Origin: a virus
Reading direction: 5' to 3' (one strand)
Virus record (IMG/VR): IMGVR_UViG_3300034022_000685
Coordinates: 1 to 59,546 of that record
DNA: 59,546 nucleotides
Shown here: in pieces, positions 11 to 48,235 of the stretch
Layout: every line of letters begins with the position of its first letter
Numbering within the stretch: position 1 is the first letter of the stretch
Position numbers and translations under genes: made by a program
Notes under the pieces: generated by a model
Databases searched by the model: none
The model's input: only the letters and a program-made list of their open reading frames with translations
What the model was told of the DNA's origin: nothing

Positions 11-1720
11 ATGGTTGGTAACATCGGGTTAAAACACCTTAGAGTTATCAAAGAAGATACCATCAAAAAATGGGACGAACTAGGATTCTTAGAAGGTCTA
101 GAAGGTCACCAAAAAGATAACATCGCGCAATTGTATGAAAACCAAGCGTCACACTTAATCAACGAAGCAGCTGTAGCTGATGCGTCTGGTTCTTTCGAGA
201 CTGTAGTTTTCCCAATTATCCGTCGTGTATTCTCTAAATTATTAGCTAACGACATCGTGTCTGTACAAGCTATGAACTTACCAATTGGTAAATTATTCTT
301 CTTCGTTCCTAAAATTCAGGAAAGAAATTCAGGAGCTCACTATTCTCCATATGGTATGCCAGGAGCTGGTGGAAGTGCTTCTACTGGTTACACAGGAAAT
401 AACTTATACGACAGATTCTACGAAGGTGGAGATGACGCAGATCAAGGATTGTTTGACTACTCTAAAGGAGAAGTTACTGACGTTTCTTTAACTGGTACGT
501 CTATCGTTACTTTTGCAACTGGTGTTGAAAGTTCTCCAGTAACATTGACTTCAGGTTCAACTGCAGTTTCTAGTGTTATTGTTAAATTAACTGGTTTCTC
601 TAAACCAGGTCAAGGTAAATTAGCTGGTCCAGACGGTAACGAAATGGATACAGAAGAGTTCTTAGCTTCTTTACAGATTTCATCTTCTAAAGTTAAGGAT
701 GGTGCTTCATTACCTTTCAATGTGGTAACACAAAAATATGGTAAAGGTATCGTTGAATACGGAGTAAAAAGATTTGATTCTGCTAACGGTGCTGGATATC
801 AAGATATCTGTGATGAGAATGGTGTTATCTACTTAAGTGTAGACGTTGAAACATATTCTGCAACTGCAGGTTTCTCTACATTCAAACCAACAGGTACAAC
901 TGATTTAGATGGTGCTGATTTCGTAGCGGTTTACCGTAGATATGCATCTTTAGAATTTGAAGATCAAATTGGTGAAGTATCTTTTGACCTTTCTTCTGTA
1001 ACAGTTTCTGTAACTGAAAGAAAATTAAGAGCTAGCTGGTCTCCAGAATTGGCTCAAGACGTTAGTGCATTCCACAACATCGACGCTGAAGCTGAGTTAA
1101 CTGCATTGTTATCTGAGCAAATCGCAGCTGAGGTTGACCGTGAAATCTTACGTGATTTACGTAAAGGTGCAGCTTGGAAAGCTAAATGGGATTACAATGA
1201 GTGGAAATACGGTGGTGCATCTGGTGCAACATTACAAGGTTACACTCAAAAAGATTGGAACCAAACTTTGATCACTAAAATCAACCAAGTTTCAGCTCAA
1301 ATCCACAAAACTACTTTAAGAGGTGGTGCTAACTGGATCGTTGTTTCTTCAGAAGTTTCTGCAGTATTTGATGATTTAGAGTACTTCCACGTATCTAACG
1401 CTCATCCAGAGCAAGATCAGTACAATATGGGTATTGAGAAAGTAGGTACATTAGCAGGTCGTTACCAAGTATACCGTGACCCTTACTTCCCAGCAGGAAA
1501 AATCTTGATTGGACACAAAGGTAAATCATTGTTAGACGCTGGTTACATCTACGCACCGTACGTTCCATTACAATTAACTCCTACTATGTACAATCCGTTC
1601 AATATGACCCCTATAAAGGGTATTATGACACGTTACGCAAAGAAAATGGTGAACAACCGTTACTTTGGTGTAATTGATGTACAAGGTATCGTTACATTCA
1701 GTTTGGATACATTAAGATAA
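11..1720 (+). CDS. gp23: Major capsid protein, T4 gp23-like
   Basis: This protein builds the prolate or isometric head lattice. The N-terminal half carries the T4 gp23 pattern: an IAQLYENQ segment near residue 38, then SFETVVFPIIRR, then VQAMNLPIGK near residue 92. The length of 569 aa is close to T4 gp23 (521 aa). A likely prohead-protease site is LINE|AA after residue 52, at the same relative place as the FLTE|AE cleavage in T4. The frame stays open to the left edge (Glu-Ser-Gly before the Met), so the true start may lie upstream of the window and the gene may be 5'-partial. A strong terminator follows directly. Identification comes from motif recognition and is firm; the exact N-terminus is not. 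Confidence 0.93.
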   Translation: MVGNIGLKHLRVIKEDTIKKWDELGFLEGLEGHQKDNIAQLYENQASHLINEAAVADASGSFETVVFPIIRRVFSKLLANDIVSVQAMNLPIGKLFFFVPKIQERNSGAHYSPYGMPGAGGSASTGYTGNNLYDRFYEGGDDADQGLFDYSKGEVTDVSLTGTSIVTFATGVESSPVTLTSGSTAVSSVIVKLTGFSKPGQGKLAGPDGNEMDTEEFLASLQISSSKVKDGASLPFNVVTQKYGKGIVEYGVKRFDSANGAGYQDICDENGVIYLSVDVETYSATAGFSTFKPTGTTDLDGADFVAVYRRYASLEFEDQIGEVSFDLSSVTVSVTERKLRASWSPELAQDVSAFHNIDAEAELTALLSEQIAAEVDREILRDLRKGAAWKAKWDYNEWKYGGASGATLQGYTQKDWNQTLITKINQVSAQIHKTTLRGGANWIVVSSEVSAVFDDLEYFHVSNAHPEQDQYNMGIEKVGTLAGRYQVYRDPYFPAGKILIGHKGKSLLDAGYIYAPYVPLQLTPTMYNPFNMTPIKGIMTRYAKKMVNNRYFGVIDVQGIVTFSLDTLR

Positions 1721-15484: not shown

Positions 15485-16051
15485 TTACTTCGCTTTATTT
15501 ACTCCAGTAATTTTACCTTTGAAGATTGAATCACCTACTTTGAGTACTAGGTTTTCATTAATTGATGAGGTTGTAGAAGCGGTTAGGATTTGATTTAGTT
15601 TCTCATCCATAACCTTACGAACCGTGTTTTCGATAAGAACCGCAATCGCGTTCATATCTATATTGTTATTGACAATAGTTTGTTTTGGTTGAGCAGACGG
15701 TCTAGTTGATACACCTTCTTGTTCCATTAATCTTTTAGCCCCTTTGATAAAATCCATATCTAAGGTATCATTTAAAGATATTTGAGATATTGGATTTTCA
15801 ATCATTGCTCGTTTAATTGCATCAGGTAGTTTTGAGTTGTTAATTTTATCGATAGATGGAGAACCTTGAGCTTCTCTTTTTGCTGGAGAAATATTTTGAT
15901 TTTTCATAAGCTCTTCTGGGTCAGATAATAACATAGCTTCATTTATGTGACCTCTTTCAAAATTTCCACCGTCCACTTTATTCATCACTTTCTTAGCGTT
16001 TACTAATCTTGACATTAAATCGTTTTGTGATATTACTCCTTGACCTGACAT
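15485..16051 (-). CDS. Candidate prohead core or capsid-associated protein
   Basis: A 188-aa protein of unknown function. Residues 35-40 read HINE|AM, matching the prohead-protease site seen in the capsid protein (LINE|AA). The middle is disordered-looking, residues 130-165 form a probable coiled coil (IAVLIENTVRKVMDEKLNQIL), and a small beta segment ends the protein. This layout suits a scaffold or packaged protein cut during head maturation. A 54-nt gap without a gene separates it from the downstream glycosyltransferase gene. The assignment is inference. Confidence 0.55.
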   Translation of the reverse strand: MSGQGVISQNDLMSRLVNAKKVMNKVDGGNFERGHINEAMLLSDPEELMKNQNISPAKREAQGSPSIDKINNSKLPDAIKRAMIENPISQISLNDTLDMDFIKGAKRLMEQEGVSTRPSAQPKQTIVNNNIDMNAIAVLIENTVRKVMDEKLNQILTASTTSSINENLVLKVGDSIFKGKITGVNKAK

Positions 16052-16084: not shown

Positions 16085-16978
16085 TTACCCGAACATTAAA
16101 GTTTTAATTCTTTTTATTGATTCTTGTAAATCTGTTGTGTCTTCCACATCGTTGTTTACTTCATCTGAAACTTTAATATTGTTTTTAGATAATAAATTTG
16201 ATAAATCTGATTTAGAAGACATTTCAAATCTTCTTCTTGTACCTTCACCAGCGTTAACGTTTTTACCAATTTGTTTTTGAGAATCAATCCACTCTTTCTC
16301 TTTCATTTTATATAACTCAGTGCTAGCATTTTCAAAATCTTGGGTGGTAACAACTTTCTCACCATTAACATCTTTAGCATTACCCTGTAGTTTATTGAAA
16401 ACTTCACCTGAAAAATCTTTAGGTTGTTCTTGAGGTACTGCAGATGGTTTTTCATCTGTCTTAGGTTGTGGTAATGGTTCCTTAGATGGTTTAACTGTTG
16501 GTTTGGGTTGTGGGGTTGCCGATGGAGGTGGAGTTTCTTGTTTTTTAACTTCAGGAGTTTCAGTCCAATTTGTTGTAACATAAGTTGTAATCATTGGACC
16601 TTTGTCCGATTCTGCACCTTGTTTGTAACCAGGTCTTGTAACGTCAAAAGTCTCGTCTTGTTGAATTTTTAAATTACTCATTCTATCAACACGATACGTT
16701 CTCCAATTTGTTTTACTATAACCTTTTTTTGATACTGAAGGTGGTTGAACATAAGCTCTAATAATAACATTCCCACCCTTACTTAATCCCATTGCAACCG
16801 CCTCAGCTCTTACCCTAACACCAGACTTAACACTATCCTTACCTGGTTCTTTTGGTCCCGTATAATAAAATGTAATAGGATTCCTATTGGTAATAGCACT
16901 TACCAAGGTATTTGATTTTTTACCCTTTGGAACCTCTTGTTCTCCTATAATTTTAGAGAATATTTTATTTAACTCCAT
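16085..16978 (-). CDS. WYL-like domain protein with capsid-type leader
   Basis: A 297-aa protein in three parts. Residues 1-13 (MELNKIFSKIIGE) form a short helix ending in a possible protease site IGE|QEVP. Residues 25-105 resemble a WYL domain: an ITFYYTG strand, RVRAEAVAMGLSKGGNVIIRAY, then a WRTYRVDRMSNLKI ending. A Pro-, Lys- and Thr-rich linker (about 145-190) leads to a helical C-terminus that ends RIKTLMFG. WYL domains usually bind ligands or nucleic acid in regulators and defence proteins; here there is no DNA-binding domain beside it. Its place among head-type genes suggests a packaged protein. Confidence 0.6.
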   Translation of the reverse strand: MELNKIFSKIIGEQEVPKGKKSNTLVSAITNRNPITFYYTGPKEPGKDSVKSGVRVRAEAVAMGLSKGGNVIIRAYVQPPSVSKKGYSKTNWRTYRVDRMSNLKIQQDETFDVTRPGYKQGAESDKGPMITTYVTTNWTETPEVKKQETPPPSATPQPKPTVKPSKEPLPQPKTDEKPSAVPQEQPKDFSGEVFNKLQGNAKDVNGEKVVTTQDFENASTELYKMKEKEWIDSQKQIGKNVNAGEGTRRRFEMSSKSDLSNLLSKNNIKVSDEVNNDVEDTTDLQESIKRIKTLMFG

Positions 16979-16979
16979 A

Positions 16980-17639
16980 TTAAAAATCTGGATATGTTTT
17001 TGTCAATCCGTATTTGTTTCTCGCCGCGGTTTCTATTCTAGCGTTAATATCAGTTAATGAACCAACATTATTAGAATTTTCACCTTTTCCTTTATCGTCA
17101 CCGTTAGATAACGCATTCACGTGTACACTTGAATAACCGTTATCCTTATTGTAAATATTCCTTGCTGTGTTATCTATTCTATTTTGTATATCTACAGATG
17201 AACCCACACTGTTATTGTACTCTCCCTTACCTTTTTCATCACCGTTTGATAATGCATTAAGATTATTAATACCGTAACCGTTATTATCTTTATATTGGTT
17301 TCTACCTAATAATTCCAATCTATTTTGTATATCCACAGATGATCCGACACTATTACCACTTTCTCCCTTACCTTTTTCATCACCATCAGATAATGCGTTG
17401 GGATTGTTTGAGTTATATGTATTATTATCTGTATAGATATTTCTACCTAAATTAGTTATCCTATTTTGAATATCGATTGACGAACCAATATTATTACTAT
17501 TTTCACCTTTACCCTTTTCATCTCCATCAGACATCGCATTCTTATGGTTAGAACTATATTGACCATTATCGTTATACGAATTTCTAGTTAATAAATCTTT
17601 TCTAAATTTTTCGGATAGTGTTTCTAATTGTGTTGCCAT
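16980..17639 (-). CDS. 47-residue tandem-repeat protein, probable virion component
   Basis: A 219-aa protein made almost entirely of four tandem repeats with a period of exactly 47 residues (starting at residues 34, 81, 128 and 175). Each repeat has the core NAxSxGDxKGKGE, then VGSxxDIQNR, then a Tyr-Asp/Lys-Asn-rich spacer. The first 33 residues hold a helical cap plus part of a further repeat. No cysteine and no hydrophobic core segment is seen, so an extended or symmetric oligomeric structure is likely. It lies in the block of candidate head proteins, 1 nt from the WYL-like gene. Confidence 0.7.
   Translation of the reverse strand: MATQLETLSEKFRKDLLTRNSYNDNGQYSSNHKNAMSDGDEKGKGENSNNIGSSIDIQNRITNLGRNIYTDNNTYNSNNPNALSDGDEKGKGESGNSVGSSVDIQNRLELLGRNQYKDNNGYGINNLNALSNGDEKGKGEYNNSVGSSVDIQNRIDNTARNIYNKDNGYSSVHVNALSNGDDKGKGENSNNVGSLTDINARIETAARNKYGLTKTYPDF
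16983..17540 (-). repeat. Four 141-bp tandem coding repeats
   Basis: The repeats span roughly 17540-17400, 17399-17259, 17258-17118 and 17117-16983. The protein is better conserved than the DNA, so the repeats are old and kept by selection on the protein rather than recent slippage products. Confidence 0.8.
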
Positions 17640-17640
17640 A

Positions 17641-18135
17641 TTATTCCATTAATTTTTTAATTCTTTCAACTTCCTCAAATAATCCCGTTAATTTGATTGA
17701 TGATATTGAGTTTTTATGTGAATTACTTTTAATAAGGTTAGTTGGTGGTAACCATCCTGCCTTTTTAGTGTGTTTTTTTAAGTGACTATTTCTTCTCTCT
17801 CCCGTCATTGACGAAATATCGTCAGCACGTTTTCTACCATCTTTAATGTTACTTACTAAATCTCTTTCACCTTGTAAATGTTGGTTTGCCCATTTTTCCA
17901 TTAAATCACCACCACATAAGTCGTATTTTAATTTATCTTGAACTTTATCTATAGTCTTAAGGTCGTGAATTATTGACTTTAATTGACCGTATTTTACTTT
18001 TTTGTCATTAAGAATTTTTTTAGCTCTATCAATACCACGTGCGTGTTCTCCATTAAGACTAACTATTGTGTGATTAATCTTATCTAAGATATTTTGTGGT
18101 ACATCAAAAATTCTACCTTTTAATTCTTTATTCAT
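17641..18135 (-). CDS. Hypothetical virion-type protein
   Basis: A 164-aa, very basic, mostly helical protein with no recognised domain. The C-terminus (FEEVERIKKLME) resembles the end of the WYL-like protein (QESIKRIKTLMFG), hinting at a shared binding tag. It overlaps the upstream gene by 8 nt and sits 1 nt before the repeat protein, so the set is one translational unit. A DNA- or head-associated role is possible given its charge. Confidence 0.6.
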   Translation of the reverse strand: MNKELKGRIFDVPQNILDKINHTIVSLNGEHARGIDRAKKILNDKKVKYGQLKSIIHDLKTIDKVQDKLKYDLCGGDLMEKWANQHLQGERDLVSNIKDGRKRADDISSMTGERRNSHLKKHTKKAGWLPPTNLIKSNSHKNSISSIKLTGLFEEVERIKKLME

Positions 18136-18877
18136 TATCTTTAAGATGTTTGATTAAATCCTCAATAGATAAGTTGTGACTATCCATTGTATTTTTTAAT
18201 GATTTAATTTGTTTTTTTACGATTGGACTAATTTCTTTGACATCATTTGTCACAATATCATTCTCATTGGATTTTTTACCCATTAAAGATTCAATATATT
18301 CCTCAATGAATTTTTTTGGATTTTCAACTAACCTAACTTTATCTTCTGGAAGTTTTGGGTCGTATCCAATAGCACTTAATCTATCTTCAGCCTCACTACC
18401 ATCCATTCCTAATTCTTTTTCAAAATATTCCTCAGCATCTTCTAAGTCGGCGTCTTGTCCTAAAGTTTTTTCATACCCAAGAGCTTTACTCATATCTGAT
18501 TCACCCCAATATCTTCTATATGGTTGAGCACCTGCACCACCAAACGAACCCATTTGACCCGTACCTGTTTTCGCCACCTGATCAGTTGTTTTCTTTTGAG
18601 TTATTCCCTTAGCAGCCCCAACTGGATTTTTCTTACTTCTTTGAATGTTTCCTTTTGCGTCAACTATTTCATCAACTTCGGTCTCAACTTCCTTTTTTTC
18701 TACCTTATTAGGTATTTTATCATAATCCGTGTCGTCAGAGAATTCTTTAGCCCATTTACCCCATTTCTTCTTTTCTTTCTTAGGTTTATCCTTCTCATTA
18801 GCCTTAGCAAAGAAGAATCTTTGTTGTGCTTTTGAAGCAAATTTCTCTTCAATTACCTGTTTTATAAAATTATTCAT
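18128..18877 (-). CDS. Hypothetical virion-type protein with SKAQQRFF leader
   Basis: A 249-aa charged protein. The N-terminus MNNFIKQVIEEKFASKAQQRFFFAK combines a short amphipathic helix with an SKAQQRFF pattern that I recall from phage structural proteins. A Lys/Glu-rich low-complexity region follows (about 28-90), then a Gly-rich QPYRRYWG segment near 128 and an acidic helical region. It is the first gene of the minus-strand block, with its own late motif 16 nt upstream. Function unknown; packaged or scaffold protein suspected. Confidence 0.6.
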   Translation of the reverse strand: MNNFIKQVIEEKFASKAQQRFFFAKANEKDKPKKEKKKWGKWAKEFSDDTDYDKIPNKVEKKEVETEVDEIVDAKGNIQRSKKNPVGAAKGITQKKTTDQVAKTGTGQMGSFGGAGAQPYRRYWGESDMSKALGYEKTLGQDADLEDAEEYFEKELGMDGSEAEDRLSAIGYDPKLPEDKVRLVENPKKFIEEYIESLMGKKSNENDIVTNDVKEISPIVKKQIKSLKNTMDSHNLSIEDLIKHLKDNE

Positions 18878-18893
18878 CTAAATACACTTTTTA

Positions 18894-18901
18894 TATAAAT
18901 A
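18894..18901 (-). promoter_or_regulatory. Putative late promoter (TATTTATA)
   Basis: A sense-strand TATTTATA, 16 nt before the ATG at 18877. It lies back to back with the plus-strand motif at 18919-18926, making a compact divergent late promoter pair. Confidence 0.6.
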
Positions 18902-18918
18902 TCAAATCTTATGAAAGA

Positions 18919-18926
18919 TATTTATA
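18919..18926 (+). promoter_or_regulatory. Putative late promoter (TATTTATA)
   Basis: An exact GATATTTATA on the sense strand, 5 nt before the ATG at 18932. It overlaps codons of a possible upstream Met (18911), which is why the inner Met is preferred as the start. Confidence 0.6.
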
Positions 18927-18931
18927 AACGT

Positions 18932-20440
18932 ATGAATACTCAAAATATTTTAAATTTTTATGGTACAAAGTTAGACGTTAGGTTGGATAGTTCGGAGTAT
19001 TACGACTACGAAATGACCAAATTGGATGACGACTATAACAAAGATGTCTTAGATTTAACCACCCCTATAACATATACGGGTCTAACAATTAACACCAACT
19101 TGACTAATTTTGACTGCGTAAAGTCAACAATTCGACTTATTGAGGATAATGTAAGTGATTTATTAAGTTCTTACATATATTCTGGATTATCAATGACATT
19201 GCCATATAATAATTTTGTATCACGTTTTGGAACGGGATTTACTTATACAATTTTAGACAATAATATATTTAAATTTACACTTATTAATAATGAAACCCAT
19301 TATTTTAAAATTTTAGGATATAATCAAACTGGGATAACGTCCTCTATTTTAACGGGATATACTGAATCTCAACTTATTTCTGGATTTACAACAAACGTTT
19401 ATAATTGTAGAAAAAATATTATCAATCCATTAGCTTGTTGTCCTCAATCGCCAAGAATTGGTACAAAACCTTGGGCATTTAAATTTAATGAAGGTTTAGG
19501 AACCGACAATTGTTCTCCAATATTAAAAAGAAGAACAGAAAAAGGTTGGACTTTGGATTTTATCTTTAATAGAAATAATCTTCCTTGGAGTGCGGGTAGT
19601 ACATTTTACTATATTGGAGTAAGAGGTGAAAACGATACATATGACTACGCCGATAACAATCTTTCTTTTCAGTTTACCTCAGATAGAAGAATTAAATGGG
19701 TTGCACATCACTATTCTGGTTATTGTGGAACTAGTACATACCAAGAAAGTTTTTACGTTGCTAGTGGACAAACACCTCAATTATGTACAATAGACCCCGT
19801 AAAAGACTTTAATGTTACAATTGTTTTTGACCGTTATAAAAGATATACCGATTGTAATTTAGAGAATGATGGTGGTTGGAATGATATGATAGGTTATAGA
19901 ATTAACCCATATCAAGATATTGTTTATACTGCGGTTACGTCAACTCAACTAGCGATTTGGGATGAAAATGAAGTATTATCCAAACAATGGGCAGACGAAC
20001 AACAAAGAAGGTTGGGGATATTAAAAATATACATTAATGGACGACCAATTTACAAATTAGAAAATTGGGAGGAGGTTATACCATCTGAAAGAGGGGTTCA
20101 ACCGTTTATACAATCTTGGGGTGGGGGAACAGGATTAATGAATAACATTCACAATGGTGTTTGTTGTTTTAATATGAAATCAATAAAATATTATGAGGAA
20201 CCGTTAGATTTTGTTCACGTTAGACATAATTTTTTAATGAGATTAAATAACTATGATTTTTCAATATGTGGAGATGTGTGTTATGATAATGTTTCAGGTA
20301 TGACTATTACACCAACACCTACACCAATAGCAACTAGTACCCCAACACCAACTCCTACATCAACCACCACTTCCACTAATACACCAACACCTTTACCGAC
20401 TAGTACACCAACTATAACGCCTACACCGACACCTATATAA
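18932..20440 (+). CDS. Tail or fibre-type protein with Thr-Pro-rich C-terminal tail
   Basis: About 502 aa. The body is beta-rich; residues 170-440 (WAFKFNEGLG, then WTLDFIFNR, then KIYINGRPIY) have the rhythm of a LamG/concanavalin-like sugar-binding domain, and several Cys residues (ACCPQ, GVCCFN, CGDVC) could stabilise it. The last 43 residues are nearly pure Thr, Pro and Ser in TPTPTP runs, which form a stiff, surface-exposed stalk. A host-binding or tail-decoration role is likely but unproven. The start is set at 18932 because the upstream ATG at 18911 lies before the promoter-like motif. Confidence 0.6.
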   Translation: MNTQNILNFYGTKLDVRLDSSEYYDYEMTKLDDDYNKDVLDLTTPITYTGLTINTNLTNFDCVKSTIRLIEDNVSDLLSSYIYSGLSMTLPYNNFVSRFGTGFTYTILDNNIFKFTLINNETHYFKILGYNQTGITSSILTGYTESQLISGFTTNVYNCRKNIINPLACCPQSPRIGTKPWAFKFNEGLGTDNCSPILKRRTEKGWTLDFIFNRNNLPWSAGSTFYYIGVRGENDTYDYADNNLSFQFTSDRRIKWVAHHYSGYCGTSTYQESFYVASGQTPQLCTIDPVKDFNVTIVFDRYKRYTDCNLENDGGWNDMIGYRINPYQDIVYTAVTSTQLAIWDENEVLSKQWADEQQRRLGILKIYINGRPIYKLENWEEVIPSERGVQPFIQSWGGGTGLMNNIHNGVCCFNMKSIKYYEEPLDFVHVRHNFLMRLNNYDFSICGDVCYDNVSGMTITPTPTPIATSTPTPTPTSTTTSTNTPTPLPTSTPTITPTPTPI

Positions 20441-47599: not shown

Positions 47600-48235
47600 A
47601 TGTTAGAGAAAAAATTACACGACGAGTTGAAGCGTTATAGACAAATCAACAAATATGGTTCTAAGATGATTATGGAACAAGAAGTTCCAGAACCGCCTAT
47701 TGACCCAGCTGCCCCAGTTGATCCTGCGGCACCTATTGACCCAGCTGCTCCGATTGATCCTGCGGCACCACCAATGGACGCACCAGTAGGAGATGCACCA
47801 GCGGACGGAGGTACTGAAGAAATTGATATTACTGATTTAGTTAATATGACTAAAAGTATCAAAAACAACATCGATGACAATAAAGCGGATCACGTATCTG
47901 TTTTGAACAAAATGGATGATGTATTTAGTAAATTAACAGACCTTGAAGCTAAATTAGGTGAAATGGACCAAGTGGTTGCTAAAATCGACCAATTAGGTGC
48001 ACAAGTACAACAAATGAAACCAGAAACACCTCAAGAAAAACTTGAGATGCGTTCTTTGGATTCATATCCGTTTAACCAAAGACCAAACGAATTCTTTAAT
48101 CAAAAACAAGGTGAAATGAGAGCTTCTGGTAAAAATGAGTATGTTTTAACTAAACAAGACGTTCAAGATTACTCACCAGATACCATAAAATCATCTTTTA
48201 ACCCAGACGAAGAAGAAAATGAATTTAAGTTCTAA
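47600..48235 (+). CDS. Candidate scaffold or packaged protein with Pro-Ala repeats
   Basis: A 211-aa protein. The first 26 residues are a charged helix ending in MIME|QEVP, a possible prohead-protease site that shares EQEVP with the WYL-like protein. Residues 32-62 are five imperfect (I/V)DPAAP repeats, a flexible linker. Residues 75-140 are a long coiled coil (heptads of Leu, Ile and Val), and the C-terminus is acidic. This layout suits a core or structural protein. It overlaps the next gene by 17 nt. Role inferred, not recognised. Confidence 0.6.
   Translation: MLEKKLHDELKRYRQINKYGSKMIMEQEVPEPPIDPAAPVDPAAPIDPAAPIDPAAPPMDAPVGDAPADGGTEEIDITDLVNMTKSIKNNIDDNKADHVSVLNKMDDVFSKLTDLEAKLGEMDQVVAKIDQLGAQVQQMKPETPQEKLEMRSLDSYPFNQRPNEFFNQKQGEMRASGKNEYVLTKQDVQDYSPDTIKSSFNPDEEENEFKF

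Follow-up and report, generated by a model that had tools for sequence, protein, structure and literature searches.

WYL domains usually have a regulatory role (PMC6789036; PMC9122601). The locus described here raises the question of what such a domain does in a T4-like virus when it is carried by a protein with a cut-signal-like tag at each end, an arrangement that probably marks a packaged head protein. The window (the whole stretch of DNA analysed, 59,546 nucleotides) is a fragment of a T4-like myovirus, with gp23 at its first bases, PolB, a contractile sheath, baseplate J, DnaB helicase, and NrdA/B. The WYL gene lies on the minus strand, within the run p249-p164-p219-WYL-p188-glycosyltransferase-p76-dUTPase-PhoH. 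The genes and signals referred to below are as follows (a slash within a motif marks the predicted cut).

11 to 1720, plus strand: gp23-type major capsid protein (PF07068, E=3.8e-73), with LINE/A as a candidate maturation site.
15485 to 16051, minus strand: p188, a conserved gene downstream of the WYL gene, from the gene order in the loci.
16085 to 16978, minus strand: the whole WYL-domain gene, a predicted prohead-core protein; intact reading frame with an ATG start, 297 aa.
16980 to 17639, minus strand: p219, a repeat protein immediately upstream of the WYL gene in the same operon, from reading frame and gene order.
17641 to 18135, minus strand: p164, a partner in the same operon with the same C-terminal tag (GLFE/EVERIKKLME), present in 98% of 62 relatives.
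18128 to 18877, minus strand: p249, first gene of the operon, from reading frame and gene order.
18894 to 18901, minus strand: late-promoter-like TATTTATA box, read on the coding strand and lying about 23 nt ahead of p249, from comparison of upstream regions.

The window starts at gp23, and gp21 and gp22 lie outside it; both were read in relatives. A gp21-type protease is encoded in five of seven relatives' contigs, and in relatives it adjoins gp23. The gp21 protease of one relative (L025:1461-3308, contig IMGVR_UViG_3300000439_000004) has 615 aa, with an intein-like insert between the protease halves; the insert contains a LAGLIDADG-like domain and a Pfam Intein_splicing match below the cut-off. 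The p219 protein has about four repeat units of ~45 residues (NALS[ND]GDEKGKGE..N.VGSS.DIQNRI), and its gene lies beside that of the WYL protein in almost every locus. A fibre-like protein at 18911-20440 has a terminal Thr/Pro tract (TPTPTPTSTTTS...); past this protein the relative L002 has other genes, and the site looks like a recombination point.

Relatives of the WYL protein were found on at least 143 IMG/VR contigs; no cultured member turned up. The gene order around it is identical in 91 loci as far as each extends, with few omissions, which places the WYL gene in the syntenic core of the phage group. The search of 50,697 phage records, PHROGs, PDB sequences, and 84,980 cellular genomes identified no relatives of the window protein; therefore, there is no annotation to be borrowed. 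As the window protein had no match among the phage records or PHROGs, no sequence homology of it to the T4 internal proteins or Alt was found, and the family profile had no match in the closest named T4-like phages tested. The protein can be divided into the following parts.

16940 to 16978, minus strand: leader, residues 1-13, ending IIGE/Q; predicted capsid-targeting sequence and prohead-protease site, from conservation and the T4 L/I-X-E rule.
16589 to 16939, minus strand: WYL (Sm-like) core, residues 14-130, basic, pI 10.0, from Pfam, AF2, Foldseek, and charge.
16679 to 16705, minus strand: predicted beta4/beta5 loop region, residues 92-100, WRTYRVDRM, from alignments A2 and A4 and PafB spacing.
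16421 to 16588, minus strand: Pro-rich linker (LPQPKpeeKP), residues ~131-186, from the alignment; its length varies among relatives.
16130 to 16420, minus strand: optional helical segment, residues 187-283, from the full-length AF2 model, where the helices have good local pLDDT.
16088 to 16129, minus strand: C-terminal tag, residues 284-297, LQE/SIKRIKTLMFG; predicted second protease site and scaffold-like helix, from conservation and motif sharing.

Profile searches and structure models both indicate that residues ~24-120 are a true WYL/Sm-like domain. The Pfam profile PF13280 (curated cut-off 21.8 bits) matched the core alone above the cut-off (E=6.7e-5, 23.2 bits) and the full-length query just under it (E=7.9e-4, 19.8 bits). 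The same profile matched all 28 members of the family alignment (E<=0.1; best 1.1e-6), and the alignment to the PADLOC WYL model spans residues 23-112. The AlphaFold model of the core, built from 28 sequences, consists of a helix and five strands (pLDDT 79, pTM 0.72); a poor model from 3 sequences (pLDDT 55) was left out of the fold searches. The first 21 Foldseek matches in the PDB were all WYL proteins (chains of BrxR, CapW, DriD, and PafBC), and many Hfq/Sm proteins followed at weaker scores. By this model, the core would have the Sm-like fold of the solved WYL proteins. The WYL-like domain of the original prediction was thus borne out by the profiles and again by the predicted structure. 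The W-Y-L triplet is absent from beta3, where most members of the family alignment have GN-[LVIM]-[IVA]-[IVLM]-R. No HTH and no WCX domain were found, and the short leader alone precedes the domain. An hhalign comparison to E. coli YfjR alone gave no significant match and was uninformative. Matches to Dmd (E=0.5), to HAND, and to TonB (in the linker) were taken as chance or composition.

In the predicted beta4/beta5 loop region of the core, W92, R93, and T94 are invariant and Y/F95 and R99 nearly so (alignments A2 and A4). The binding of ssDNA by PafBC requires WYL Arg residues of this loop region (PMC11804915, PMC6789036). The spacing W92-R93-T94-[FY]95-x-x-x-R99 fits R208/F210/R214 of PafB, as judged by spacing and not by superposition. 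Arg at position 96 is variable among members, and R211 of PafB has no constant counterpart. The Arg/Phe loop is largely kept in the phage protein.

In T4, gp21 cleaves after L/I-X-E, and the internal proteins are directed into the core by propeptides of 10-19 residues (PMC9026906). The leader of the window protein, MELNKIFSKIIGE/Q, is predicted to be a short helix. E13 is invariant in the 12-member alignment A2 (identity down to 37%); the leader is otherwise diverse (39% identity among relatives), yet the [IL][IL]xE core is kept. The pattern [ILV][ILV]xE/[QASGN] within residues 1-30 was found in 81% of 68 distinct relatives, versus 0-15% in 13 neighbouring gene families used as controls. These results agree with the earlier suggestion of a 13-residue leader with a prohead-protease-type site, and the motif and its conservation point to an N-propeptide of the IP/Alt class, with a length of 10-20 residues and ending L/I-X-E. 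Since L-x-E is short, it is the conservation and not the motif itself that carries the protease-site claim. A strict count of the N-terminal motif over whole proteomes showed no enrichment in the window or in the relative G005 and a modest one in G004, so the case for the leader rests on conservation within the WYL family. Elsewhere in the window, a 211-aa Pro-rich protein (47600-48235) has an N-terminal MIME/Q site, which is kept in G005 (MIMEQDVPPPP), and may be another packaged protein.

The C-terminal tag, absent from the original prediction, is the stronger packaging signal. No other part of the protein is as conserved as these 14 residues (69% identity), whose family pattern, LxE/xIxRIKxLM, comprises a further predicted gp21 site and, after it, a conserved helix. 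The motif and its conservation are those expected of a C-propeptide after L-X-E, as in Alt. Among 1,284 ORFs of related loci, 101 of the 103 occurrences of the motif were C-terminal, and nearly all belonged to the WYL protein or p164; these two families are over-represented because the loci were fetched via the WYL protein. A simpler pattern, [RK][IMF]K.[LI][MI], was sought within the last 25 residues of the proteins encoded by the window, G004, and G005, and was found only in the WYL protein, p164, the scaffold gp22, and the protease gp21. These four families hold 10 of 10 terminal matches, and 4 occurrences lie elsewhere in proteins (Fisher 1e-8, with matches that are not independent, as the three genomes share families). 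The gp22 of relatives ends in VLSE/SKAYENPQFKRMKDLMSKIK; in several relatives gp21 has a [KR]MK[KS]LMG motif ~15 residues before its end. The tails of the WYL protein and p164 thus resemble those of the core's own scaffold and protease. A similar terminal R[MW][KQ]KLA is found in the gp22-position genes of Flavobacterium phage immuto, Microcystis phage Mel-JY01, and LR756508. The gp22 of T4 itself does not have the RIKxLM tail motif, so the motif is not universal. The same type of tag was also seen in three other proteins of related phages (L024:4960-5706, L036:17108-18553, and L021:7352-7789), which may likewise be head cargo and gave no confident domain match; one has the tag near its N-terminus followed by LMNE/Q, and two have it at the C-terminus together with an LxE leader.

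Between the core and this tag, the Pro-rich linker and helical tail described earlier are both present, but the helical part (residues 187-283) is missing in some relatives (L012, L013, and L015; occupancy 0.57). The predicted freed protein, residues 14-286, would have 30.4 kDa and a pI of 9.2.

Comparison of upstream regions showed that TATTTATA precedes p249 in 48 of 52 distinct cases; no such box stands directly before the WYL gene, p164, or p219. In G005, the box also stands before gp21, gp22, sheath, and tube. Within the window, 10 of 11 copies fall in the 2,393 gap bases, where 2 would be expected from shuffled gaps; over the window as a whole, the octamer TATAAATA/TATTTATA shows no enrichment, which is confined to gap placement and orientation. 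The sharing of this box suggests late co-expression of the WYL operon with the head genes. The box is the reverse complement of the T4 late box TATAAATA and may be the late promoter of the phage group. Its gap copies on the coding strand (4841, 8877, 18894, 20449, 24935, 27758, 29776, 32955, 34485, and 47367) precede sheath, tube, and other likely structural genes.

Taken together, the WYL protein is likely to be a late prohead-core protein of the Alt/IP type, trimmed at both ends, with its basic WYL domain left in the head. The 13-residue leader and the C-terminal helix of ~11 residues would anchor the precursor in the scaffold core. IIGE-13 and LQE-286 would be the points after which a gp21-type protease cuts, just as Alt is trimmed at its two termini by T4 gp21. 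The product of this cleavage, of ~30 kDa, would comprise the basic WYL/Sm-like domain, the Pro-rich linker, and the optional helical segment; it would probably remain in the head beside the DNA and be ejected with it. The WYL domain, in the host or already in the head, would most likely bind single-stranded nucleic acid or a nucleotide via the Arg/Phe loop. For the head packaging proposed originally, support comes from the second predicted protease site, the gp22/gp21-like tail, the gp21-type protease in relatives, and the late-type box; packaging is thus well supported, although it and the cleavage are inferred from sequence features. Ejection, ligand, and host effect are speculative.

The conservation of the gene gives a counterpoint to the IP-like explanation, since the WYL gene belongs to the conserved core and T4 internal proteins are variable. 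The protein may therefore also serve head structure or assembly. The protein might be packaged but work there as a core- or DNA-organising assembly protein, for example on nucleic acid near the core or portal, and not as an ejected effector. This explanation, which differs from the Alt/IP-type one only in events after packaging, is somewhat less than even in probability. The strict synteny across the 91 loci argues for such a core role, and the tail motif common to scaffold and protease, the basic WYL core, and the high conservation of the C-terminal tag are consistent with it. However, maturation would remove both tags, as in T4 cargo, and leave the WYL domain free. The lack of a family-profile match in the closest named T4-like phages tested argues against a general assembly factor and, together with the two removable tags, for cargo.

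The usual role of WYL domains would also fit a late-made regulator that acts in the infected cell, with the end motifs binding some other partner. This is unlikely, because the protein has neither HTH nor WCX domain, both ends fit the protease-site rules, and the late-type box and the tail motif common to gp22 and gp21 also speak against it. It is very improbable that the WYL likeness is superficial and the domain just a generic small beta barrel. The missing W-Y-L triplet and the full-length Pfam score just below the cut-off might suggest so, but PF13280 matches every member of the family alignment, and the top PDB folds are all WYL proteins, ahead of Hfq/Sm.

If the Alt/IP-type explanation is true, a WYL domain, familiar from host defence and DNA-damage regulators, would be placed inside the virus particle. 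The open-licence literature yielded no account of a virion that contains a WYL domain, which does not prove that there is none. The C-terminal LxE/xIxRIKxLM tag (as in gp22 and gp21) and the N-terminal LxE leader would then give a sequence rule for predicting packed, and maybe injected, proteins of uncultured T4-like phages. A further scenario is doubtful and is offered tentatively: a WYL nucleic-acid/nucleotide-binding domain, packaged by means of a C-terminal imitation of the scaffold and protease tails, might then be injected and, within the first minutes of infection, bind ssDNA or the signal nucleotides of host defence, or disturb the WYL regulators of the host.

A 321-aa WYL-like protein of the huge phage LR756502 has a related core (family profile E=3.9e-6) but no leader or tail tags; the tags were thus gained in this phage group or lost in LR756502. 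BrxR, CapW, DriD, and PafBC share the modelled WYL/Sm-like fold and the Arg/Phe loop. However, they are HTH-WYL transcription factors, often with WCX, whereas the phage protein has no HTH, WCX, or W-Y-L triplet. With the gp22 and gp21 of its own group, it shares the C-terminal [RK][IM]KxLM motif, and with gp22 also the preceding LxE site; the tail alone is shared, not the body. Like T4 IPI-IPIII, it is predicted to have a short N-terminal capsid-targeting propeptide ending L/I-X-E and a basic mature protein. These internal proteins differ from one phage to another, and the only processing known for them is N-terminal, whereas the WYL gene belongs to the syntenic core and encodes a C-terminal tag. 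T4 Alt, a head-packaged ADP-ribosyltransferase, has propeptides at both termini, which are removed after L/I-X-E (PMC5694885). Alt has a different domain, with no sequence relation found, and a C-propeptide of 63 residues versus about 11; like Alt, the WYL protein has L/I-X-E sites, here predicted, at both ends.
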